The notes under the pieces are model-generated. The model searched no databases. It saw nothing but the letters and a program-made list of their open reading frames with translations, and was not told the DNA's origin. The position numbers were made by a program, and so were the translations under genes. This document shows positions 46,131 through 55,810 of a DNA stretch of 64,000 nt, piece by piece. Position 1 is the first letter of the stretch; every line of letters starts with the position of its first letter. Source of the stretch: Balneolaceae bacterium (GTDB taxonomy: Bacteria > Bacteroidota > Rhodothermia > Balneolales > Balneolaceae); contig SLKI01000020.1 in assembly GCA_007134695.1 (NCBI GenBank), positions 62,001 to 126,000 on the forward strand, read 5' to 3'.

Positions 46131-46781
46131 ATGATTGCCCCGGAAGGCTACTCGACCCTTGCCACTGTTTTTATCGTATCGGCAGTGATTGCATGGGGAG
46201 GTTCCTATCTCGGATCTGCAGCATCCTGGGTGGTTTACGGACTGCTAATGTTAACTTTCCTGCTGTTTGTCTACTTTTTCAGAGACCCTGAACGTTCAAT
46301 TCCGGACAATCATGACCTGATCGTTGCACCGGCCGACGGAAAGGTGGTTCGAATTCAAAAGGTGCGCGATGAGAGGTACTTGCATGGGGAAGGGACACAG
46401 ATCAGTATCTTTCTTTCGCCCCTTGATGTTCACGTCAATAGAGTCCCGGTCTCGGGAAAACTGGAATATGTTGAGTATTTTCCGGGAAAATTTCTCATGG
46501 CATGGGAAGACCATGCCTCCGAACAGAATGAACGGGCTCATTTCGGAGTCAGACACCCCTCAGGGTATAAAATATTGTTCAAACAGATAACAGGCTTTAT
46601 GGCCAGAAGGATTGTTTATCATATCCGGGAAGGAGATGAGCTGAAAGCGGGACAACGGTTCGGTATTATGAAGTTCAGTTCCAGGATGGATCTGGTGCTC
46701 CCGCCGGATATCGAACTCCGGGTTCAGGAGGGAGATCGCACTGTTGCCGGTGAATCGATTATCGGGGAGATCGGGCCATGA
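46131..46781 (+). CDS. psd: Phosphatidylserine decarboxylase, short type
   Basis: This 216-residue protein of the short Psd-A type forms phosphatidylethanolamine by decarboxylating phosphatidylserine. Two N-terminal membrane helices lead to VAPADGKVVRIQKV, the substrate-binding FLSPLDVHVNRVP, and the autocleavage region. The usual cleavage pair Gly-Ser in FGSR is here Ser 183-Ser 184 (KFSSRMD), so the residue before the pyruvoyl-forming Ser is changed. It overlaps pssA by four bases, which supplies its substrate. Confidence 0.9.
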   Translation: MIAPEGYSTLATVFIVSAVIAWGGSYLGSAASWVVYGLLMLTFLLFVYFFRDPERSIPDNHDLIVAPADGKVVRIQKVRDERYLHGEGTQISIFLSPLDVHVNRVPVSGKLEYVEYFPGKFLMAWEDHASEQNERAHFGVRHPSGYKILFKQITGFMARRIVYHIREGDELKAGQRFGIMKFSSRMDLVLPPDIELRVQEGDRTVAGESIIGEIGP

Positions 46782-47623
46782 AATATCCTGTTCAAAAATG
46801 GAGGCAGATCAGACAGAGACGCCGGAGGAGGCCCGGAAAACGCAAGCCGATACCGCGGATCGTCGTTCCCAGCTTCTTTACATTGATGAACCTCTTCAGC
46901 GGATTTCTGTCGATCGTACTGGTTGCGGAAGGGAATTTTGTGCTCGGCGCCTGGTTTATCGCTCTGGCAGGCCTGTTCGATTCCCTGGATGGAGTGATGG
47001 CCCGGCTGGCCAATGCATCCAGCGAATTTGGAATTCAGCTCGATTCGATCAGTGACGTAGTTTCATTTGGTGCGGCACCGGGCTTCCTGATCTATTCATT
47101 CGGACTAAATGAACTGGGAATTCTCGGCATTATTATCAGTTCTCTCCCGCTTCTGTGCGGTTCGATCCGGCTTGCGAGATACAATGTGATGGCTAATCAC
47201 AAAAGTTTTGATGATTTTCGCGGCTTGCCGATTCCCGGCCAGGCGATCATGCTTGCCGCTTTTGTACTTACTTTTGTCAACCGTATGGAGCTTTTTGAAG
47301 GTCTCGAATATGGTGTGGCAGGCGTGCTCATCCCGATTGTTATTCTGATCTCCTTTCTGATGCTGAGTACAATTCCATTCGACAAGCTTCCGCGCTTCGA
47401 CCGGCAGTCGTTCAAAACCAAGAAAGCGAGGTTTACACTGTTTGCGGTTTATCTGCTCATCATCATCCTGTTTCAGGAGTATGGACTGATGTTTGTATTC
47501 AGCGTTTATATTCTCAAAGGTTTGCTGACAGGTACATGGCTCTTCTGGACAGACAGATTTGATGAAGAGCATCTGATCGGTCACGGGGGAGTGGATGACC
47601 CGGACAACCCTGGCGGCCACTGA
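46778..47623 (+). CDS. pssA: CDP-diacylglycerol-serine O-phosphatidyltransferase
   Basis: This 281-residue CDP-alcohol phosphatidyltransferase makes phosphatidylserine. The active-site motif is D-G-x2-A-R-x8-G-x3-D-x3-D in SLDGVMARLANASS...FGIQLDSISD (about 70-95). Seven or so hydrophobic helices follow. A long basic N-terminal stretch (RQRRRRRPGKRKP, about 8-24) precedes the first helix. It overlaps psd, the next enzyme in phospholipid synthesis, by four bases, so both are made from one message. Confidence 0.94.
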   Translation: MKYPVQKWRQIRQRRRRRPGKRKPIPRIVVPSFFTLMNLFSGFLSIVLVAEGNFVLGAWFIALAGLFDSLDGVMARLANASSEFGIQLDSISDVVSFGAAPGFLIYSFGLNELGILGIIISSLPLLCGSIRLARYNVMANHKSFDDFRGLPIPGQAIMLAAFVLTFVNRMELFEGLEYGVAGVLIPIVILISFLMLSTIPFDKLPRFDRQSFKTKKARFTLFAVYLLIIILFQEYGLMFVFSVYILKGLLTGTWLFWTDRFDEEHLIGHGGVDDPDNPGGH

Positions 47624-47703: not shown

Positions 47704-47732
47704 TTGCATTTCAATCGATCTTGTTCTACTTT
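47704..47732 (+). promoter_or_regulatory. Possible trp promoter
   Basis: TTGCAT (47704-47709) is followed after 17 bases by TACTTT (47727-47732). Transcription would start at about 47739, leaving almost no leader before the trpL ATG at 47743. The match is modest, and a start further upstream is equally possible. Confidence 0.3.
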
Positions 47733-47742
47733 CTCATTTGCT

Positions 47743-47814
47743 ATGCGATACGAATCGACTCATAACAACTGGTGGTGGTGCGGACATTTCATTCCCGCAG
47801 CTGGTATGTTATGA
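47743..47814 (+). CDS. trpL: trp operon leader peptide
   Basis: A 23-codon ORF encodes MRYESTHNN, three consecutive Trp codons TGG (47770-47778), then CGHFIPAAGML and TGA. Its position 79 bases ahead of trpE, followed by mutually exclusive hairpins and an intrinsic terminator, is the layout of ribosome-mediated attenuation. Ribosomes short of Trp-tRNA would stall at the WWW run. No Shine-Dalgarno precedes the ATG. The peptide itself probably has no other role. Confidence 0.85.
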   Translation: MRYESTHNNWWWCGHFIPAAGML

Positions 47815-47855
47815 GATAATATAGACGAAGAGTTTTCCAAACAAACCCGCTGCAG
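47779..47855 (+). promoter_or_regulatory. trp attenuator: alternative leader hairpins
   Basis: TGCGG (47779-47783) pairs with CCGCA (47795-47799), the 1:2 type hairpin. The segment 47795-47805 can instead pair with 47845-47855: nine Watson-Crick pairs with two mismatches, core GCAGC/GCTGC. This antiterminator uses the 5' arm of the terminator (47843-47851). A ribosome stalled on the Trp codons (47770-47778) leaves 47795 onward free, favouring antitermination. One that reaches the stop (47812-47814) covers that segment and frees the terminator. Confidence 0.8.
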
Positions 47856-47875
47856 ATCCTGGAGCGGGTTTTTTT
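47843..47875 (+). terminator. trp leader terminator
   Basis: AAACCCGCT (47843-47851) pairs perfectly with AGCGGGTTT (47863-47871) around an 11-base loop, followed by a T-run to 47875. It lies 17 bases before the trpE ATG and is the switchable element of the attenuator. Confidence 0.9.
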
Positions 47876-47892: not shown

Positions 47893-49389
47893 ATGGAGTT
47901 TGAAGAGTTTAAAAAATGGGCTGGTCAATACAACGCTGTTCCGGTTAGCCGCAGGTTGCTGGCAGATGTGTGGACACCGGTCTCTGTTTTTCTTTCCATT
48001 CGCCGGGGTGCCAGCTATCCATTTCTGCTGGAGTCGGTAGAAGGGGGAGAACAGGTTGCACGCTATTCGTTTATCGGCAGAGACCCATATCAGGTACTGC
48101 TCTTTGACGGCAGAAAGGTTGTTCTGAGAACTAATGATAAGGAGAGGGAGCTTCAGAAGCCCTATTTTGAAGCGTTGGACGAATTGACAGAGCAGTACAG
48201 GCAACCAGAGCTGCTCGACCTGCCAAGACTGACAGGCGGGGCGGTCGGATATTCCTCTTATGACACCATCAGAGAGATCGAGCAGTTAACCGGCGGTCCG
48301 GAAAAGGATCTTGACACCCCGGAGGCGATCTGGGCTTTCTATGACGAGGTGATTGCATTTGACCACGTGAAACATCAGCTCGTTCTTATGAAGACGGTGT
48401 TTCCAGAGAACTACTCCAGTCCTGAAAAAGCATACAACGATGCGCAGCAGGCACTGGACCGGATGGAAACGACAGTTCGCAGTACACCTGAACCGGATCG
48501 CCCAATAGATCTCGACAAGGAGTTGCTCGGGAGCAACCAGTCGAGAAGCGAGTTTGTCAAGAATGTAGAGAAGGCAAAGTCGTATATTGTTGAGGGCGAG
48601 ATATTTCAGGTAGTTCTTTCACAAAGATTTAAAGTTCCTTTCAGGGGTGACCGATTTATGTTATACCGGGCGCTTCGAATGGTGAACCCCTCACCATATC
48701 TGTTCTATCTCGATTTTAAAGAATTCTCACTGATCGGATCTTCTCCTGAAGTACTGGTTCGGGTTACCGGCCGGGAAGCGCGGTTGCTACCGATAGCTGG
48801 CACCAGGCCTCGCGGCGTCGACAGGGATGAGGATCTGGTGCTGGAAAAAGAACTGCTGGCTGATCCAAAGGAGGTAGCCGAGCATATCATGCTGGTGGAT
48901 CTGGGCAGGAACGACCTTTCACGCGTATGTAATGCGGGCAGTGTGAAGCTGGAGCGTAACAGGGTCATAGAACGCTATTCCCATGTGATGCACATCGTTT
49001 CGGATGTCGTTGGCAAACTTCGGGATGGAGAAAATGCTGTGAGTGCGCTGAAAGCCTGTTTTCCGGCGGGCACGGTCAGTGGTGCTCCGAAGATCCGTGC
49101 GATGGAGATTATCGACCGGCTTGAACCGGTGAGGCGCGGGCCTTATGCAGGAGCTGTCGGTTATTTTGACTATTCCGGTAACATGGATACCTGCATTGCG
49201 ATCCGGACCATGGTTGCAACTTCGGAAAATGTATACATTCAGGCAGGTGCCGGGATTGTAGCAGACAGCCGGCCCGGGAATGAATTTGAAGAGACAAAAA
49301 ACAAGGCGAGAGCGTTGGTAGAAGCTCTGGATCTCGCCTTGACGATCACACAAAACGAAAAACACCCCAAGAAGCCTACAACAGAATAG
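47893..49389 (+). CDS. trpE: Anthranilate synthase component I
   Basis: This 498-residue enzyme converts chorismate to anthranilate with TrpG. The Trp feedback site LLES is conserved (YPFLLESVEGGE, near 42-53), and chorismate-binding blocks include PIAGTRPRG, HIMLVDLGRNDLSRV, FPAGTVSGAPKIRAMEIIDRLE and the C-terminal AGAGIVADSRPGNEFEET. AAAGG lies six bases before the ATG at 47893. Transcription should be set by the upstream attenuator. trpS follows after four bases. Confidence 0.97.
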   Translation: MEFEEFKKWAGQYNAVPVSRRLLADVWTPVSVFLSIRRGASYPFLLESVEGGEQVARYSFIGRDPYQVLLFDGRKVVLRTNDKERELQKPYFEALDELTEQYRQPELLDLPRLTGGAVGYSSYDTIREIEQLTGGPEKDLDTPEAIWAFYDEVIAFDHVKHQLVLMKTVFPENYSSPEKAYNDAQQALDRMETTVRSTPEPDRPIDLDKELLGSNQSRSEFVKNVEKAKSYIVEGEIFQVVLSQRFKVPFRGDRFMLYRALRMVNPSPYLFYLDFKEFSLIGSSPEVLVRVTGREARLLPIAGTRPRGVDRDEDLVLEKELLADPKEVAEHIMLVDLGRNDLSRVCNAGSVKLERNRVIERYSHVMHIVSDVVGKLRDGENAVSALKACFPAGTVSGAPKIRAMEIIDRLEPVRRGPYAGAVGYFDYSGNMDTCIAIRTMVATSENVYIQAGAGIVADSRPGNEFEETKNKARALVEALDLALTITQNEKHPKKPTTE

Positions 49390-49393
49390 TTCC

Positions 49394-50395
49394 ATGAATC
49401 TGACCGACAAGACCATACTTTCCGGTATTACCCCCTCCGGGCGACTGCACCTGGGCAATTATTTTGGCGCGATGCGGCAACATCTGCAGATGCACAAGGA
49501 GGGAGACGCATTCTATTTTATTGCAAACTACCACTCGCTAACGGCGCTAGCCGATGGAGAACAAGTACGCGAAAACTCCCTGCACATCGCACTGGATTAC
49601 CTGGCGCTCGGCCTGGACCCGGATCGATCTACATTTTTTCTCCAGTCGGATGTGCCCCAGGTAACAGAACTGGCATGGATTCTGGGAACTCAATGTCCGG
49701 TCAGCCTGATGGAGAAAGGTGTAGCGTATAAAGACAAGGTGGCGTCCGGCCTCTCCCCGAACATCGGGCTGTTTACCTATCCGATTCTACAGGCAGCCGA
49801 CATCCTGATTTACGACTCGGATCTGGTACCGGTGGGAGCCGACCAGAAACAGAACCTGGAGATCTGCCGGGATCTGGCGGGAAAATTAAATCGGGTCTAC
49901 GGCGATGAACTACTCAAACTTCCCGAACCCTGGATTGTCAAGGAGGTGGCTGTCGTTCCGGGTTTGGACGGACGGAAGATGAGCAAGTCGTACGATAACA
50001 CGATTGGGATCTTTGAAGAAGGAAAGGCCCTGAAGAAACGGGTAATGGCTATCGAGACCGATTCGACCCCGCTCGAAGAACCGAAAGATCCAGAAAGCTG
50101 CAATGTGTTTGCACTGATCCGTCTCTTTGCCGAAGAAGATGAGCTGAAGGAGATTGCCGATAACTATCGGAATGGAGGATATGGGTACGGAGATGCCAAA
50201 AAGGATCTTCTCGCTATGATTAACCGGACATTTGCCGAAGCCAGAGAACGGCGTAAAGAGTTGGCCAAACATCCGGACGATGTGATGGATATACTGCGTC
50301 AGGGCGGACGCAAGGCACGATTCCGGGCAGAAATGGTGATGGAGCGTGTTCGCTCTGCAACCGGCATCCTCTCTACGATGAAAAGAGATTCTTGA
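49394..50395 (+). CDS. trpS: Tryptophanyl-tRNA synthetase
   Basis: This 333-residue class I synthetase charges tRNA-Trp. The HIGH-type motif is PSGRLHLGNY (14-23), the KMSKS signature is at 195-199 (GRKMSKSYDN), and the Trp-binding region includes TYPILQAADILIYDSDLVPVGADQ. It sits inside the trp operon between trpE and trpG, four bases after trpE and overlapping trpG by four. Its expression should therefore follow Trp attenuation, linking biosynthesis to tRNA charging. This is not its usual location. Confidence 0.96.
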   Translation: MNLTDKTILSGITPSGRLHLGNYFGAMRQHLQMHKEGDAFYFIANYHSLTALADGEQVRENSLHIALDYLALGLDPDRSTFFLQSDVPQVTELAWILGTQCPVSLMEKGVAYKDKVASGLSPNIGLFTYPILQAADILIYDSDLVPVGADQKQNLEICRDLAGKLNRVYGDELLKLPEPWIVKEVAVVPGLDGRKMSKSYDNTIGIFEEGKALKKRVMAIETDSTPLEEPKDPESCNVFALIRLFAEEDELKEIADNYRNGGYGYGDAKKDLLAMINRTFAEARERRKELAKHPDDVMDILRQGGRKARFRAEMVMERVRSATGILSTMKRDS

Positions 50396-50982
50396 TGGTA
50401 TTGATCATCGACAACTACGATTCGTTTACCTGGAACCTGGTTCACCTGATCGCCCGAACACGCTCCGATTACAGGGTGATTCGCAACGACGATCTGACCG
50501 TGCAGGAGATCGAAAGCCTGCACCCGGAACGGATCCTCATCTCACCAGGCCCCGGCCGCCCGGAACATGCCGGTGTAACAGAGCAGGTGATACGTGTGAT
50601 GGGGGAGAAGACGCCGATACTGGGCGTATGTCTCGGACATCAGGCGATCGGCAGAGTCTTCGGGGCCAAAGTGGTACACGCTCCCCGGCTGATGCACGGG
50701 AAAACCTCAAAAGTTTCTCATGACGGAAAAAACCTGTTTAAAGATCTGGAAACTGATTTTACAGCTACTCGATATCATTCGCTTGTACTGGACCCTGACT
50801 CGATTCCTTCTGAGCTCGAAGTTACTGCCCGCAGTGATGATAATGTGGTGATGGGGGTTCGGCATCGAGTGTGGCCGGTAGAGGGGATACAGTTTCATCC
50901 AGAAAGTATTTTGACTCAAGCCGGGCCGGCAATGATTGAGAATTGGCTCAGAATGTATGTGAAGATTAAAAAAGAGAAATGA
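50392..50982 (+). CDS. trpG: Anthranilate synthase component II (glutamine amidotransferase)
   Basis: This 196-residue class I amidotransferase supplies ammonia to TrpE. The triad is Cys 80 (GVCLGHQAIG), His 169 and Glu 171 (IQFHPESIL). The N-terminal IIDNYDSFTWNL and SPGPGRP blocks are conserved. It overlaps trpS by four bases (ATGA). It could also serve PabB (folate synthesis), but its place in the operon favours trp. A 102-base gap separates it from trpD. Confidence 0.95.
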   Translation: MMVLIIDNYDSFTWNLVHLIARTRSDYRVIRNDDLTVQEIESLHPERILISPGPGRPEHAGVTEQVIRVMGEKTPILGVCLGHQAIGRVFGAKVVHAPRLMHGKTSKVSHDGKNLFKDLETDFTATRYHSLVLDPDSIPSELEVTARSDDNVVMGVRHRVWPVEGIQFHPESILTQAGPAMIENWLRMYVKIKKEK

Positions 50983-51084
50983 AAACAATGCAATTTTCAT
51001 AAGGCCTGCAAAAATAGCATTATAAATTGAAATACAAACCAGGCAGTAGACTTGAAAATTTATTGATAATCATTTTAATTCATT

Positions 51085-52122
51085 ATGCATAAAGAGTTTA
51101 GAGATTATTTAACTCGTTTGGCTGACCACAAAGACCTGGGAGCCAAACCGGCAGCTGACGCCCTTCAGCAAATTGTACGGGGAGAGGTGAGCAGTGAAGA
51201 GACGGCCGCATTCCTCTTCGGTATGAGGGCCAAGGGTGAAACCGTGGAGGAGCTGACTTCCTTTGTCCGGGTGATGCGGGCAGCCGCCGTCAAAGTCGAT
51301 GTGGATACCAAGGGTGCGGTTGATCTCTGTGGGACGGGCGGCGATCACTCGGGAACATTCAATATCTCAACTGCTGCAATGTTTGTAGTAGCCGGCGCCG
51401 GGATTCCGGTTTTGAAGCATGGTAACCGAAGTGTATCGAGTCGTTGCGGAAGTGCAGATGTCCTGGAAGAACTCGGGGTCGTCGTTGACCTTCGGAAAAA
51501 AGGTGTGGAAGAAGTATTTAAGGAAACCGGCCTGGCGTTCATGTATGCACCTAACTTTCATCCGGCCATGAAGCATGTGATGCCGGCCCGAAAGGCGCTT
51601 CGAATGCGCACCTTTTTCAATATTCTGGGGCCTTTATTAAATCCAGCTGCTGTACGGAGGCAGGTGGTCGGGGCTTTTAATCTGGATATAGCCCGTACTA
51701 TGATCCACATTCTGGCTCATCTTGATACAGAAAAAGCATATACGGTGAGTGCCCATGACGGGCTGGACGAAGTGAGCCTGACCAGCCGGACCGAGCTGTT
51801 TGAACTGCAATCAGCGATGGTTCGGGACCCTGTCAGTATCCGGCCGGAGGATTTGGGGTATGAACCTTCAAGACTGGATGATCTGAAAGGGGGGGATCGA
51901 GAAAAAAATGCTGAAATCATTCGAAACGTTTTACAGGGCAGTTCCGAAGTACCTCACCGGAATATAGTACTGCTCAACTCCATTTTTGGCATCCATGTCT
52001 CGGGTCGAACGTCATCTTTGGAGGAGGCTCGTCAGATGGCTGAGGATTCCATCGATAGCGGAAAGGCATACCGGAAACTGAACGAATTTGCCGAGGCAAC
52101 TCAAAGTGTACTAAAGGAATGA
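51085..52122 (+). CDS. trpD: Anthranilate phosphoribosyltransferase
   Basis: This 345-residue enzyme attaches phosphoribose to anthranilate. Motif GTGGDHSGTFNIST (83-96) binds PRPP, with KHGNRSVSSRCGSADVLEELG and HPAMKHVMPARKALRMRTFFNILGPLLNP downstream. The preceding 102-base spacer is AT-rich (TTGATAATCATTTTAATTC) and could hold an internal promoter. The stop codon overlaps the trpC start. Confidence 0.97.
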   Translation: MHKEFRDYLTRLADHKDLGAKPAADALQQIVRGEVSSEETAAFLFGMRAKGETVEELTSFVRVMRAAAVKVDVDTKGAVDLCGTGGDHSGTFNISTAAMFVVAGAGIPVLKHGNRSVSSRCGSADVLEELGVVVDLRKKGVEEVFKETGLAFMYAPNFHPAMKHVMPARKALRMRTFFNILGPLLNPAAVRRQVVGAFNLDIARTMIHILAHLDTEKAYTVSAHDGLDEVSLTSRTELFELQSAMVRDPVSIRPEDLGYEPSRLDDLKGGDREKNAEIIRNVLQGSSEVPHRNIVLLNSIFGIHVSGRTSSLEEARQMAEDSIDSGKAYRKLNEFAEATQSVLKE

Positions 52123-52931
52123 TGAGAGCGGGAGATAACATACTGGATGAGATCGTGAGCCGGGTTTCCAGTCAGCTCCAGAAAAAGAAAAGAGATCTGA
52201 GCTGGCGCGATCTGGAGTCATTATCCGGATTTGAATTGCCAGTCCGGCCATTTAGAAAATCTTTAATAAGCGATGAGCTTTCTGTGATTGCTGAACTGAA
52301 AAAAGCGTCCCCTGTCAAGGGTGTTATCAGGGAGAATTTTAATCCACTTGAACTCGCCCGGGCTTATGAAGAAGCAGGAGCATCTGCTCTGTCTGTACTG
52401 ACCGAGCCGGATTTTTTTCAAGGAGATCTCGAAAATCTTGAAAAATTATCAAGTAAAGTATCTATTCCATTGCTGCGCAAGGATTTTATAATTGATCCAT
52501 ATCAAGTTAAAGAAGCAAAAGCATATGGTGCAGATGCAGTATTGATTATTGTGACCATCACCTCCGGTTCTCAGCTCGAAGAACTGATTCACGCAGGCCG
52601 GGAGTTGGGAATCGATTTGCTGATCGAATGCTACTCACAGGATGATCTGGAAAGGCTGGATTGGAAACAGGTAGAGATTCTCGGCGTCAATAACCGGAAT
52701 CTAAAAAGTTTTAAAGTTGAATTGCATCGTGGGATTGATCTGTTGAATCAGGCTCCTGATCATCTTGTCAAAGTCTCGGAAAGCGGTTTATCGACACCGG
52801 ACGACTTGCAATTGCTGAGTAAAGAGGGTATTGATGCGGCTTTGATCGGAGAATTTCTGATGCAACAGAACAACCCGGGGTATGCACTGCAAACGTTATT
52901 GAACAAAGCGAGGCAAAATGAATCGGAATAG
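52119..52931 (+). CDS. trpC: Indole-3-glycerol-phosphate synthase
   Basis: This 270-residue TIM-barrel enzyme closes the indole ring. Conserved blocks are VIAELKKASPVKGVI (catalytic Lys of the first strand), LSVLTEPDFFQGDLENL, PLLRKDFIIDPYQVKEAKAYGADAVLII, GVNNRNLKSF and KVSESGLSTPDDL. It starts with ATGATG overlapping the trpD stop. It is a separate protein, not fused to trpF. Confidence 0.96.
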   Translation: MMRAGDNILDEIVSRVSSQLQKKKRDLSWRDLESLSGFELPVRPFRKSLISDELSVIAELKKASPVKGVIRENFNPLELARAYEEAGASALSVLTEPDFFQGDLENLEKLSSKVSIPLLRKDFIIDPYQVKEAKAYGADAVLIIVTITSGSQLEELIHAGRELGIDLLIECYSQDDLERLDWKQVEILGVNNRNLKSFKVELHRGIDLLNQAPDHLVKVSESGLSTPDDLQLLSKEGIDAALIGEFLMQQNNPGYALQTLLNKARQNESE

Positions 52932-53038
52932 GAATAAGCATTCCCGTGAATAATTTCGGCAAAATCAGTATACAGAAGTTACAGAAGGCCTGAAACAGCC
53001 ATGGAAATTGATCAATCAGTCATAAATCGGAGTAAGAG

Positions 53039-53710
53039 ATGGGAAGTGACGAAGAAGGTAGAACGAAGGTAAAAATATGCGGTCTGGCCAATCTGGAGGA
53101 TGCCCGGTTTGCGGCTGGAGCGCTTGCCGACTATTTGGGTTTCATCTTCTATCGCGAAAGCCCTCGATTTATAGATCCAGCCAGGGCGGGCGCGATCATT
53201 CAATGGATCGAGGGTCCGAAAACGGTCGGTGTATTTGTCAATGCACCTCTTGACGAGGTCAATCGGATTGCCGCACAGACTGGAATTGACCTTATACAAT
53301 TGCACGGCAATGAATCACCTGAGTATTGCAGTTTGATCGATAAACCGGTGATCAAAGCGCTTCGTGCAGAGCCTGGCAATGGATTGGATCTTACTCGTCA
53401 GATTCAACCTTATCGGGATGTGGTCGACTATCTGCTGTTCGATAGTTCCGATGGGAGAAATTGGGGAGGAACCGGCAAAACGTTCGACTGGTCGTTGTTG
53501 AACGATCTGCAGTTGACGACTCCCTGGTTTCTCTCCGGGGGGTTGAACAGCGATAACATCGTCGATGCTTGCAACCGGCACAAACCTTATGCGGTAGACC
53601 TCTCAAGCGGACTTGAGCAAGCCCCGGGAATCAAGGATTATGAAAAGATTGAGCTCTTTTTTGAAAAGATGAGAACAATTTGGAACAAACAGAATGACGA
53701 AAGACAGTAG
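53039..53710 (+). CDS. trpF: Phosphoribosylanthranilate isomerase
   Basis: This 223-residue TIM-barrel isomerase acts between TrpD and TrpC. Blocks [14 protein letters not shown] (general-base Cys), [22 protein letters not shown] and [14 protein letters not shown], and [19 protein letters not shown] near the end are conserved. It is separated from trpC by 107 bases and overlaps the first possible trpB start by 17 bases. Confidence 0.95.
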
Positions 53711-54935
53711 AAGAGAATATCAAAAATATAATATGCCGGACGAAAAGGGATATTTTGGCACGTATGGTGGTAAATTTGTCCCCGAACTTCTCATGCCGGC
53801 TTTATCTGAACTGGAATCGGCTTATCGAGTTGCAAATAGAGATCCCCGGTTTACCAGTGAGTTCAACTATTATCTAAATGAGTTTGTAGGACGTCCTACC
53901 CGGCTAACATTTGCCGAACGGTTGACCAATCATTACAGGCGTGCACAAATATGGTTGAAGCGGGAAGATCTCTGTCACACCGGAGCTCATAAGATCAATA
54001 ATGCGGTTGGACAGGTTCTGCTAGCTCAACGGATGAACAAGAAGCGGATTATCGCCGAAACCGGGGCCGGGCAGCATGGTGTGGCAGTTGCGACCGCTTG
54101 CGCCCGTTTTGGGCTGGAATGTATCGTTTATATGGGTAGTGAAGATATGGAGAGGCAGAAGCTGAATGTTGAGCGAATGAAACTCCTGGGTGCAAAAGTC
54201 CGACCGGTAGAGAGCGGTTCCAGAACATTGAAAGATGCAACCAACGAAGCGATTCGGGACTGGGTTACACATGTGGAGAGTACTTTCTATGTTATCGGTT
54301 CGGTAGTCGGCCCCCATCCATACCCGATGATGGTTCGGAATTTTCAAACAGTGATCGGTCAGGAGACCAAAAGGCAGCTTGAAGAGAAGAATTTGGGAAC
54401 CCCCGATATCCTTGTAGCCAGTGTCGGAGGCGGATCGAATGCGATCGGATTTTTCTACCCGTTTATCGAAGAACGTCAGGTGAGAATGATTGGTGTGGAG
54501 GCCTCAGGTCTTGGTTTACAATCGGGAAAGACCGCTGCTACGCTTACTCTTGGCAGGCCGGGGGTATTACATGGAACCCGAAGCTATCTCCTTCAGGATG
54601 GTGAAGGGCAGGTAAAGTTGGCACATTCGGTCAGTGCAGGCCTGGACTATCCCGGAGTCGGCCCCGAGCACGCATGGCTTTATGATCAAAAACGAGCCGA
54701 ATACGTATCGGTAACCGATGAGGAGGCTTTAAAAGCGGTTGAATTGTTATCCCGGAAAGAGGGAATCATTCCAGCACTGGAGTCTGCGCATGCACTGGCC
54801 TGGCTGGAGACGCTGATGCCGCAGACAGTGGAGAATCAGATTGTTGTGCTCAATCTTTCAGGGCGCGGCGACAAGGATATGAGAACCATAGCAGAACACC
54901 TGGACCGGGAATCCAGAGGTGCGGACAGGATTTGA
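53694..54935 (+). CDS. trpB: Tryptophan synthase beta subunit
   Basis: This up-to-413-residue PLP enzyme joins indole and serine. The PLP Lys is 100 in HTGAHKINN, with [23 protein letters not shown] and [17 protein letters not shown] further on. A second ATG at 53733 ([15 protein letters not shown]) gives the canonical length and would avoid the 17-base overlap with trpF; either is possible. It overlaps the possible TTG start of trpA. Confidence 0.97.
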
Positions 54936-54961
54936 AAAACCATCTCGAAAGAGTAATTACG

Positions 54962-55810
54962 ATGAGTAGTCAGAACCAAAATAAGCGAGATCATACAATG
55001 AAGGGGAACAGAAGGCTGAAAATGCTCTTTGAGAGGAAAAAAGAGAATGAGAGGATCCTTTCACTGTTTCTGACAGCCGGGTATCCCGATCCGGGATGGT
55101 CAGCGGAATTAATTGTCGGGTTAGCCGAACATGGTGCGGATCTGATCGAGATCGGCATGCCGTTCAGTGATCCCCTGGCAGACGGGCCTACCATTCAATA
55201 TTCCAGTCAGGTTGCACTTGAACAAGGGATTACGATGGAGAAGACACTGCAAATCGTTCAGGATGTTAGAGCACAAACCGACATTCCATTGATTTTAATG
55301 GGATATACCAATCCATTGATTTCATATGGAGTCGAGAGATTTTGCGAGGACGCTGTAAAAGCCGGTGCAGATGGATTGATCATTTCGGACCTTCCGCCGG
55401 AAGAGTCTGGATTACTCCGCAGTAGTACCCGCATGGCAGGTTTGTCGATGATTTTTTTAGTAGCGCCCAACACGCCGGATGAAAGAATGAGGAGAATCGA
55501 CGAGATTTCTGACGGTTTTATTTACTGCGTATCAGTTACAGGGGTCACCGGTGCTCGCGACGGAGATGAAATAGCCGATTCAGTTGACCGTTTTATAGAG
55601 CGAGTCAACCGGAATATTACCCGGAATCCGACTCTGATCGGGTTTGGAATTCGCTCCAGGGATGATGCGATCCGGATTTCTAAAAATGTTGACGGATTTA
55701 TCGTAGGAAGCTCACTGATTGATCTGATTCGAGAATCATACCCGAACAGTGGATGGGACAAGAAGGTATATTCATTTGTTAAACAACTTAAAATTGGAAA
55801 TATTAAGTGA
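54962..55810 (+). CDS. trpA: Tryptophan synthase alpha subunit
   Basis: This subunit releases indole from indole-3-glycerol phosphate. The catalytic Glu is in DLIEIGMPFSDPLADGPTIQ and the Asp in LIFLV-adjacent DLPPEE. The family pattern LSLFLTAGYPDP opens the barrel. Starts at 54932 (TTG), 54962 (ATG) and 54998 (ATG) are in frame; the last would give a 270-residue protein with the usual short N-terminus. No clear Shine-Dalgarno decides. It ends the operon. Confidence 0.95.
   Translation: MSSQNQNKRDHTMKGNRRLKMLFERKKENERILSLFLTAGYPDPGWSAELIVGLAEHGADLIEIGMPFSDPLADGPTIQYSSQVALEQGITMEKTLQIVQDVRAQTDIPLILMGYTNPLISYGVERFCEDAVKAGADGLIISDLPPEESGLLRSSTRMAGLSMIFLVAPNTPDERMRRIDEISDGFIYCVSVTGVTGARDGDEIADSVDRFIERVNRNITRNPTLIGFGIRSRDDAIRISKNVDGFIVGSSLIDLIRESYPNSGWDKKVYSFVKQLKIGNIK

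Follow-up and report, generated by a model that had tools for sequence, protein, structure and literature searches.

A probable trpL-type transcription attenuator with a predicted near-leaderless leader peptide upstream of trpE in the Balneolales

The region upstream of trpE in a Balneolaceae genome raises the question of whether a complete ribosome-mediated transcription attenuator of the Escherichia coli trpL kind operates in this lineage, as a preliminary description of the locus had proposed for a member of the Balneolota/Rhodothermota neighborhood. The window analyzed here is a 64,000 nt stretch of one contig of this genome (2.7 Mb, 129 contigs), and the parts of the trp locus discussed below lie on its forward strand. 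The nearest match of the window TrpE protein belongs to the Balneolaceae, with Rhodohalobacter halophilus, placed by NCBI in the phylum Balneolota, as the best named organism (67% identity). In GTDB the Balneolota are a lineage inside the Bacteroidota.

The trp operon and its leader region

The locus opens with trpE (47893-49389), encoding anthranilate synthase component I (TIGR00564, 548.8 bits, above cut-off), followed by trpS (49394-50395), encoding tryptophanyl-tRNA synthetase (TIGR00233, above cut-off), and by the remaining operon genes (50392-55810), in the order trpE-trpS-trpG-trpD-trpC-trpF-trpB-trpA. When the genome was searched for further trpS genes, the one in second place in the operon proved to be the sole full-length copy. 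All Balneolales loci long enough to show it have the order trpE-trpS-trpG, as do two Rhodothermales loci; among loci of other phyla, trpS was found within the trp cluster in two only, both with a distant trpS.

A leader ORF of 23 codons plus stop, MRYESTHNNWWWCGHFIPAAGML, lies at 47743-47814, downstream of a CDP-alcohol phosphatidyltransferase gene (46778-47623) and ahead of trpE. It contains three tandem Trp codons (TGGTGGTGG, 47770-47778), presumed to be regulatory, and ends with a stop codon (47812-47814) located beyond segment 2 of the RNA structures described below, in agreement with the preliminary description on the length of the ORF, its three TGG codons and the position of its stop. 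The ORF and its Trp codons are conserved in frame among relatives, and its translation is predicted. Counting TGGTGGTGG genome-wide was uninformative, with 30 matches versus 27 for the reversed control.

A predicted promoter lies immediately upstream of this ORF. It comprises a -33 element, TTG (47704-47706), whose position is conserved in relatives, and, after a 20-nt spacer, a -7 element, TACTTTCT (47727-47734), which matches TAnnTTTG imperfectly; the predicted transcription start falls at 47739 or 47740, leaving a predicted 5' UTR of 3-4 nt. This Bacteroidota-type promoter is conserved among relatives, its spacer being exactly 20 nt long in 93 of 106 cases and the T of the -7 element lying 11-17 nt, mostly 12-16, ahead of the ATG. 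In Flavobacterium the -7 box spans -12 to -5 and transcription starts 12 nt past its T (PMC9723704, PMC6847099), and by this spacing nearly all relatives would have a 5' UTR of 0-4 nt. Of 241 other genes in the relatives' flanks that have free space upstream, just 4 carry a like promoter at the same distance. Very short 5' UTRs are infrequent in the wider group: 3.7% of 5' UTRs are shorter than 10 nt in Bacteroides thetaiotaomicron (PMC7366714) and 5.5% are leaderless in Flavobacterium psychrophilum (PMC9723704). None of the 111 leaders analyzed carries a Shine-Dalgarno-like sequence, which bears out the absence noted in the preliminary description, and the predicted promoter supports its suggestion that the leader is almost leaderless.

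Folding of the leader RNA without a ribosome yields a 1:2 hairpin (47759-47815; segment 1 at ~47759-47773), acting as the putative anti-antiterminator, and an intrinsic terminator (47843-47875) made up of a hairpin at 47843-47871 and a T tract at 47869-47875. Segment 2 (47797-47805) forms the 5' strand of a predicted antiterminator, and segment 3 (47845-47853) provides both its 3' strand and the 5' arm of the terminator, an assignment drawn for both segments from folding, shuffle comparison and covariation. The antiterminator core pairs 47797-47801 with 47849-47853 and 47803-47805 with 47845-47847, giving 8 bp with one mismatch, and it is slightly weaker than that of most relatives. The hairpin and terminator proposed earlier were thus recovered, the latter with its shared 5' arm, and the core falls inside the limits proposed for the antiterminator (47795-47805 with 47845-47855).

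The 171-nt region is more stably folded than every one of 200 dinucleotide shuffles (z -3.4), and none of 300 shuffles produced a terminator as good as that of the window. The antiterminator is the best fold (-17.2 kcal/mol) if the RNA stops short of segment 4 and its 5' part is masked as by a ribosome whose A site holds Trp codon 10 or 12. Including segment 4 makes the terminator more stable than the antiterminator, so the decision must fall during transcription, as it does in E. coli. A ribosome placed at the stop codon leaves the terminator as the only structure.

Conservation of leader and terminator

The comparative analysis covered trpE upstream regions from 130 genomes, including that of the window, the relatives being non-independent samples. 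Within the Balneolales, similar Trp-codon leaders are present in 97 of 108 regions, 95 of them with WW and mostly WWW. In the family of the window, leaders with tandem or near-tandem Trp codons precede trpE in 68 of 78 regions, and the ten exceptions consist of nine from a single genus (g4) and one broken or partial match. Trp leaders were also found in 29 of 30 regions from other families of the order, and in 14 of 22 regions (10 of 16 in a second draw) from other Rhodothermia. All 111 leaders of the class are followed by a terminator of -10 kcal/mol or lower with a T tract (median -18.3), an energy that 6% of shuffled regions attain.

The same leaders emerge when Trp codons are ignored. Short ORFs chosen solely by their promoter (TTG, 16-22 nt, TAnnTT, and an ATG within 11-18 nt) encode WW in 113 of 123 cases before trpE and W-x-W in 4 more, compared with WW in 0 of 8 on the opposite strand and 1 of 225 in shuffles. 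Among 38 near trpE homologs of other phyla used as outgroup, none was preceded by a leader with three Trp codons; five raw WW matches there (VAQAERQFAWWTG and similar) apparently represent the end of an upstream protein. The organism itself belongs to the Balneolaceae, and nearly all Balneolales and many other Rhodothermia have the attenuator, a wider spread than the use by one member suggested at the outset.

Several variants were observed around this pattern. In genus g4, whose members are Balneolaceae with small genomes, the WWW leader before trpE has been lost and promoter and terminator have been retained (L084, L081, L089, L091, L096, L123, L124, L077, L080). The leader there is a structured RNA of ~80 nt that contains the blocks CUCYAAAG and CUAGYGUUYACCC and an outer stem that apparently co-varies; in its exact form this motif occurs solely before trpE of this genus, the leader has no Rfam match, and it may be an unknown sensor replacing the leader peptide. 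In family f8 (L112, L114, L115), trpE is preceded by a terminator and by short ORFs next to the promoter that have one Trp codon each (e.g., MVKHYISPVVNWQRLPTT) and are perhaps degenerate leaders. Several families from other Bacteroidota classes (L180-L202) have WWW, WWWW or WAWFWF leaders and terminators before trpE; we do not claim these as attenuators because the antiterminator signal is weak there. Leaders of this design are also found at the histidine locus. In the genome of the window, hisG is preceded by a leader, MMIQKFIHTHLIHHHGYHHSHCGHRA, directly behind a TATATTTG element (L295 1124-1204), and near-leaderless His-rich leaders at the same promoter distance occur before hisG in many relatives (L296-L325).

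Covariation and ribosome geometry

In 86% of genomes, the stretch following the Trp codons pairs better with the 5' arm of the terminator than shuffled sequences do (p ≤ 0.05). Between clades, segment 2 and this arm change together (GCAGTGGG/CCCACTGC, ACAGCGGG/CCCGCTGT, CGGCAGTGG/CCCGCTGCCG, TGAAAGCGG/CCGCTTTCA, CCGGTGGG/CCCACCGG). Among 51 distinct pairs, standard pairs make up 80.2%, compared with 70.1% in shuffled and 31-63% in slid alignments, there are 70 two-sided changes versus 30.5 in shuffles, and the covariation score is 0.344 (reached in 0 of 500 shuffles) versus 0.160 in shuffles and 0.141 or less when slid. The register was picked for best pairing and a few very poorly pairing rows were omitted, a bias in favor of the structure that the slide and cross-genome controls limit. 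The 1:2 hairpin is strong in the window (z -2.8) and less conserved in relatives, reaching p ≤ 0.05 in just 44-79% of them depending on the group. The comparison with relatives suggested in the preliminary description hence found tandem Trp codons, terminator and mutually exclusive pairing to be conserved, with compensatory changes.

The spacing of these elements is consistent with control by a translating ribosome. If a ribosome is assumed to cover ~15 nt on each side of the P codon, placing the first Trp codon in the A site leaves segment 2 accessible in 107 of 111 genomes, and placing the third there does so in 71 of 111; when the ribosome stands at the stop codon, at least 5 nt of segment 2 are covered in 100 of 111. 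Two layouts can be distinguished. In the family of the window the ORF extends across segment 2, and peptide endings such as AVG, AVE and SSG are accordingly the translation of an RNA element. In sister families the stop codon lies about three codons past WWW, as in E. coli, and falls inside segment 2.

Proposed mechanism, alternatives and known systems

With anatomy, conservation, covariation and geometry in place, we conclude that this region is very probably a ribosome-mediated transcription attenuator controlling trpE-trpS-trpGDCFBA by sensing charged tRNA-Trp; start, stalling, read-through and Trp response are inferred from these features. Transcription would begin ~3-4 nt 5' of the leader ATG, and a ribosome would load on this near-leaderless 5' end without a Shine-Dalgarno sequence. 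When charged tRNA-Trp is scarce, the ribosome would stall at 47770-47778 and mask segment 1; segment 2 would then be available for pairing with segment 3, which would keep the terminator from forming and let the operon be transcribed. When it is ample, the ribosome would reach the stop codon and mask segment 2, allowing the terminator to form; should the ribosome be released instead, segment 2 would be locked in the 1:2 hairpin, with the same result. Since the attenuator would read Trp-tRNA charging and trpS lies in the operon, the charging enzyme would be driven by the attenuator as well, and with this being the only TrpRS gene, low charging would increase Trp synthesis as well as TrpRS itself.

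The location of the terminator between two same-strand genes would also fit a simpler explanation, in which the hairpin merely terminates the upstream CDP-alcohol phosphatidyltransferase gene and the Trp-rich ORF is due to chance. The terminator, however, is separated from that gene by ~220 nt, with a promoter in between, and from trpE by 18 nt, and the conservation of leader, spacing and pairing in relatives speaks against this explanation, which conservation, the promoter-first test and shuffles together rule out and to which we attach practically no probability. A T-box riboswitch was likewise dismissed, as no covariance model matched: at gathering score, Rfam searches returned only tRNA in the window and no match in a local search. 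The Rfam family of the E. coli trpL attenuator, Trp_leader (RF00513), was hit at the correct place and strand with 22.9 bits (E 0.018), below its gathering cut-off of 41 bits.

Other alternatives retain the same parts and assign them a different role. Leader peptides are capable of peptide-specific or translational action, and a near-leaderless start is atypical, so that the peptide could conceivably arrest the ribosome in a sequence-specific manner while sensing free Trp, as TnaC does, or the output could be translational. In TnaC, excess Trp induces a catabolic operon, a logic opposite to that of the attenuator proposed here. Beyond its Trp codons, moreover, the peptide is unconserved between clades except for the endings encoded by segment 2, and a strong terminator is always present, making both variants very unlikely. 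Somewhat less improbable, though still unlikely, is that the terminated leader RNA or the peptide acts in trans in addition to its action in cis, like rnTrpL/peTrpL of Sinorhizobium meliloti, which shares the near-leaderless start (PMC7298713); the poor conservation of the peptide sequence between clades again weighs against it.

As an attenuator of the trpL kind, the Balneolales system shares with its E. coli counterpart the tandem Trp codons, the 2:3 and 3:4 structures and the site before trpE, and in the window also a predicted 1:2 structure. It differs in the lack of a Shine-Dalgarno sequence, the predicted 5' UTR of 3-4 nt, the presence of trpS in the operon and, in the window, a stop codon past segment 2, so that the ORF encodes this segment. 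A leaderless Trp attenuator is known from S. meliloti trpL-trpE(G), where the RNA begins at the leader ATG (PMC7298713), a start comparable to the one predicted in the present case; that system belongs to an Alphaproteobacterium, with a 14-aa leader and another operon (PMC7298713). The leader peptide of the Corynebacterium glutamicum ilvBNC attenuator, which responds to branched-chain amino acids in Actinobacteria, is likewise made without a ribosome binding site, according to a passage of PMC11857589 citing Morbach 2000. With these two precedents, a leaderless start is not new in kind. Closer to the Balneolales, "strong clues" that leader peptides attenuate amino-acid operons have been described in F. 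psychrophilum (PMC9723704), which falls in the same wider group but in the Flavobacteriaceae, and the main text of that work details no Trp leader. Leader-peptide systems were stated in 2010 to be unknown beyond Proteobacteria and Actinobacteria (PMC2965389). No report of a trp attenuator in the Balneolota/Rhodothermota was found in the literature searched, mostly papers available without subscription. A wide attenuator survey (Lopatovskaya 2010) may include Bacteroidota cases.

The Balneolales attenuator thus represents the trpL kind in a new lineage, in which the predicted order-wide near-leaderless design and the location of the sole trpS in the operon stand out. Whether this extends to a general principle is a proposal on which we are evenly balanced: in a lineage without Shine-Dalgarno sequences, near-leaderless leaders would be general for amino-acid attenuators (Trp, His), selection on the promoter-ATG distance would let a ribosome load as soon as the 5' end emerges, and driving the only TrpRS would make the Trp circuit self-closing. 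A complete trpL-type attenuator across a whole order of Bacteroidota/Balneolota, in a group without Shine-Dalgarno sequences and in which very short 5' UTRs are rare, makes it possible to test how ribosomes may load fast enough for attenuation with neither a Shine-Dalgarno sequence nor a long 5' UTR, and whether closed feedback results when a sensor of tRNA-Trp charging controls the only tryptophanyl-tRNA synthetase.
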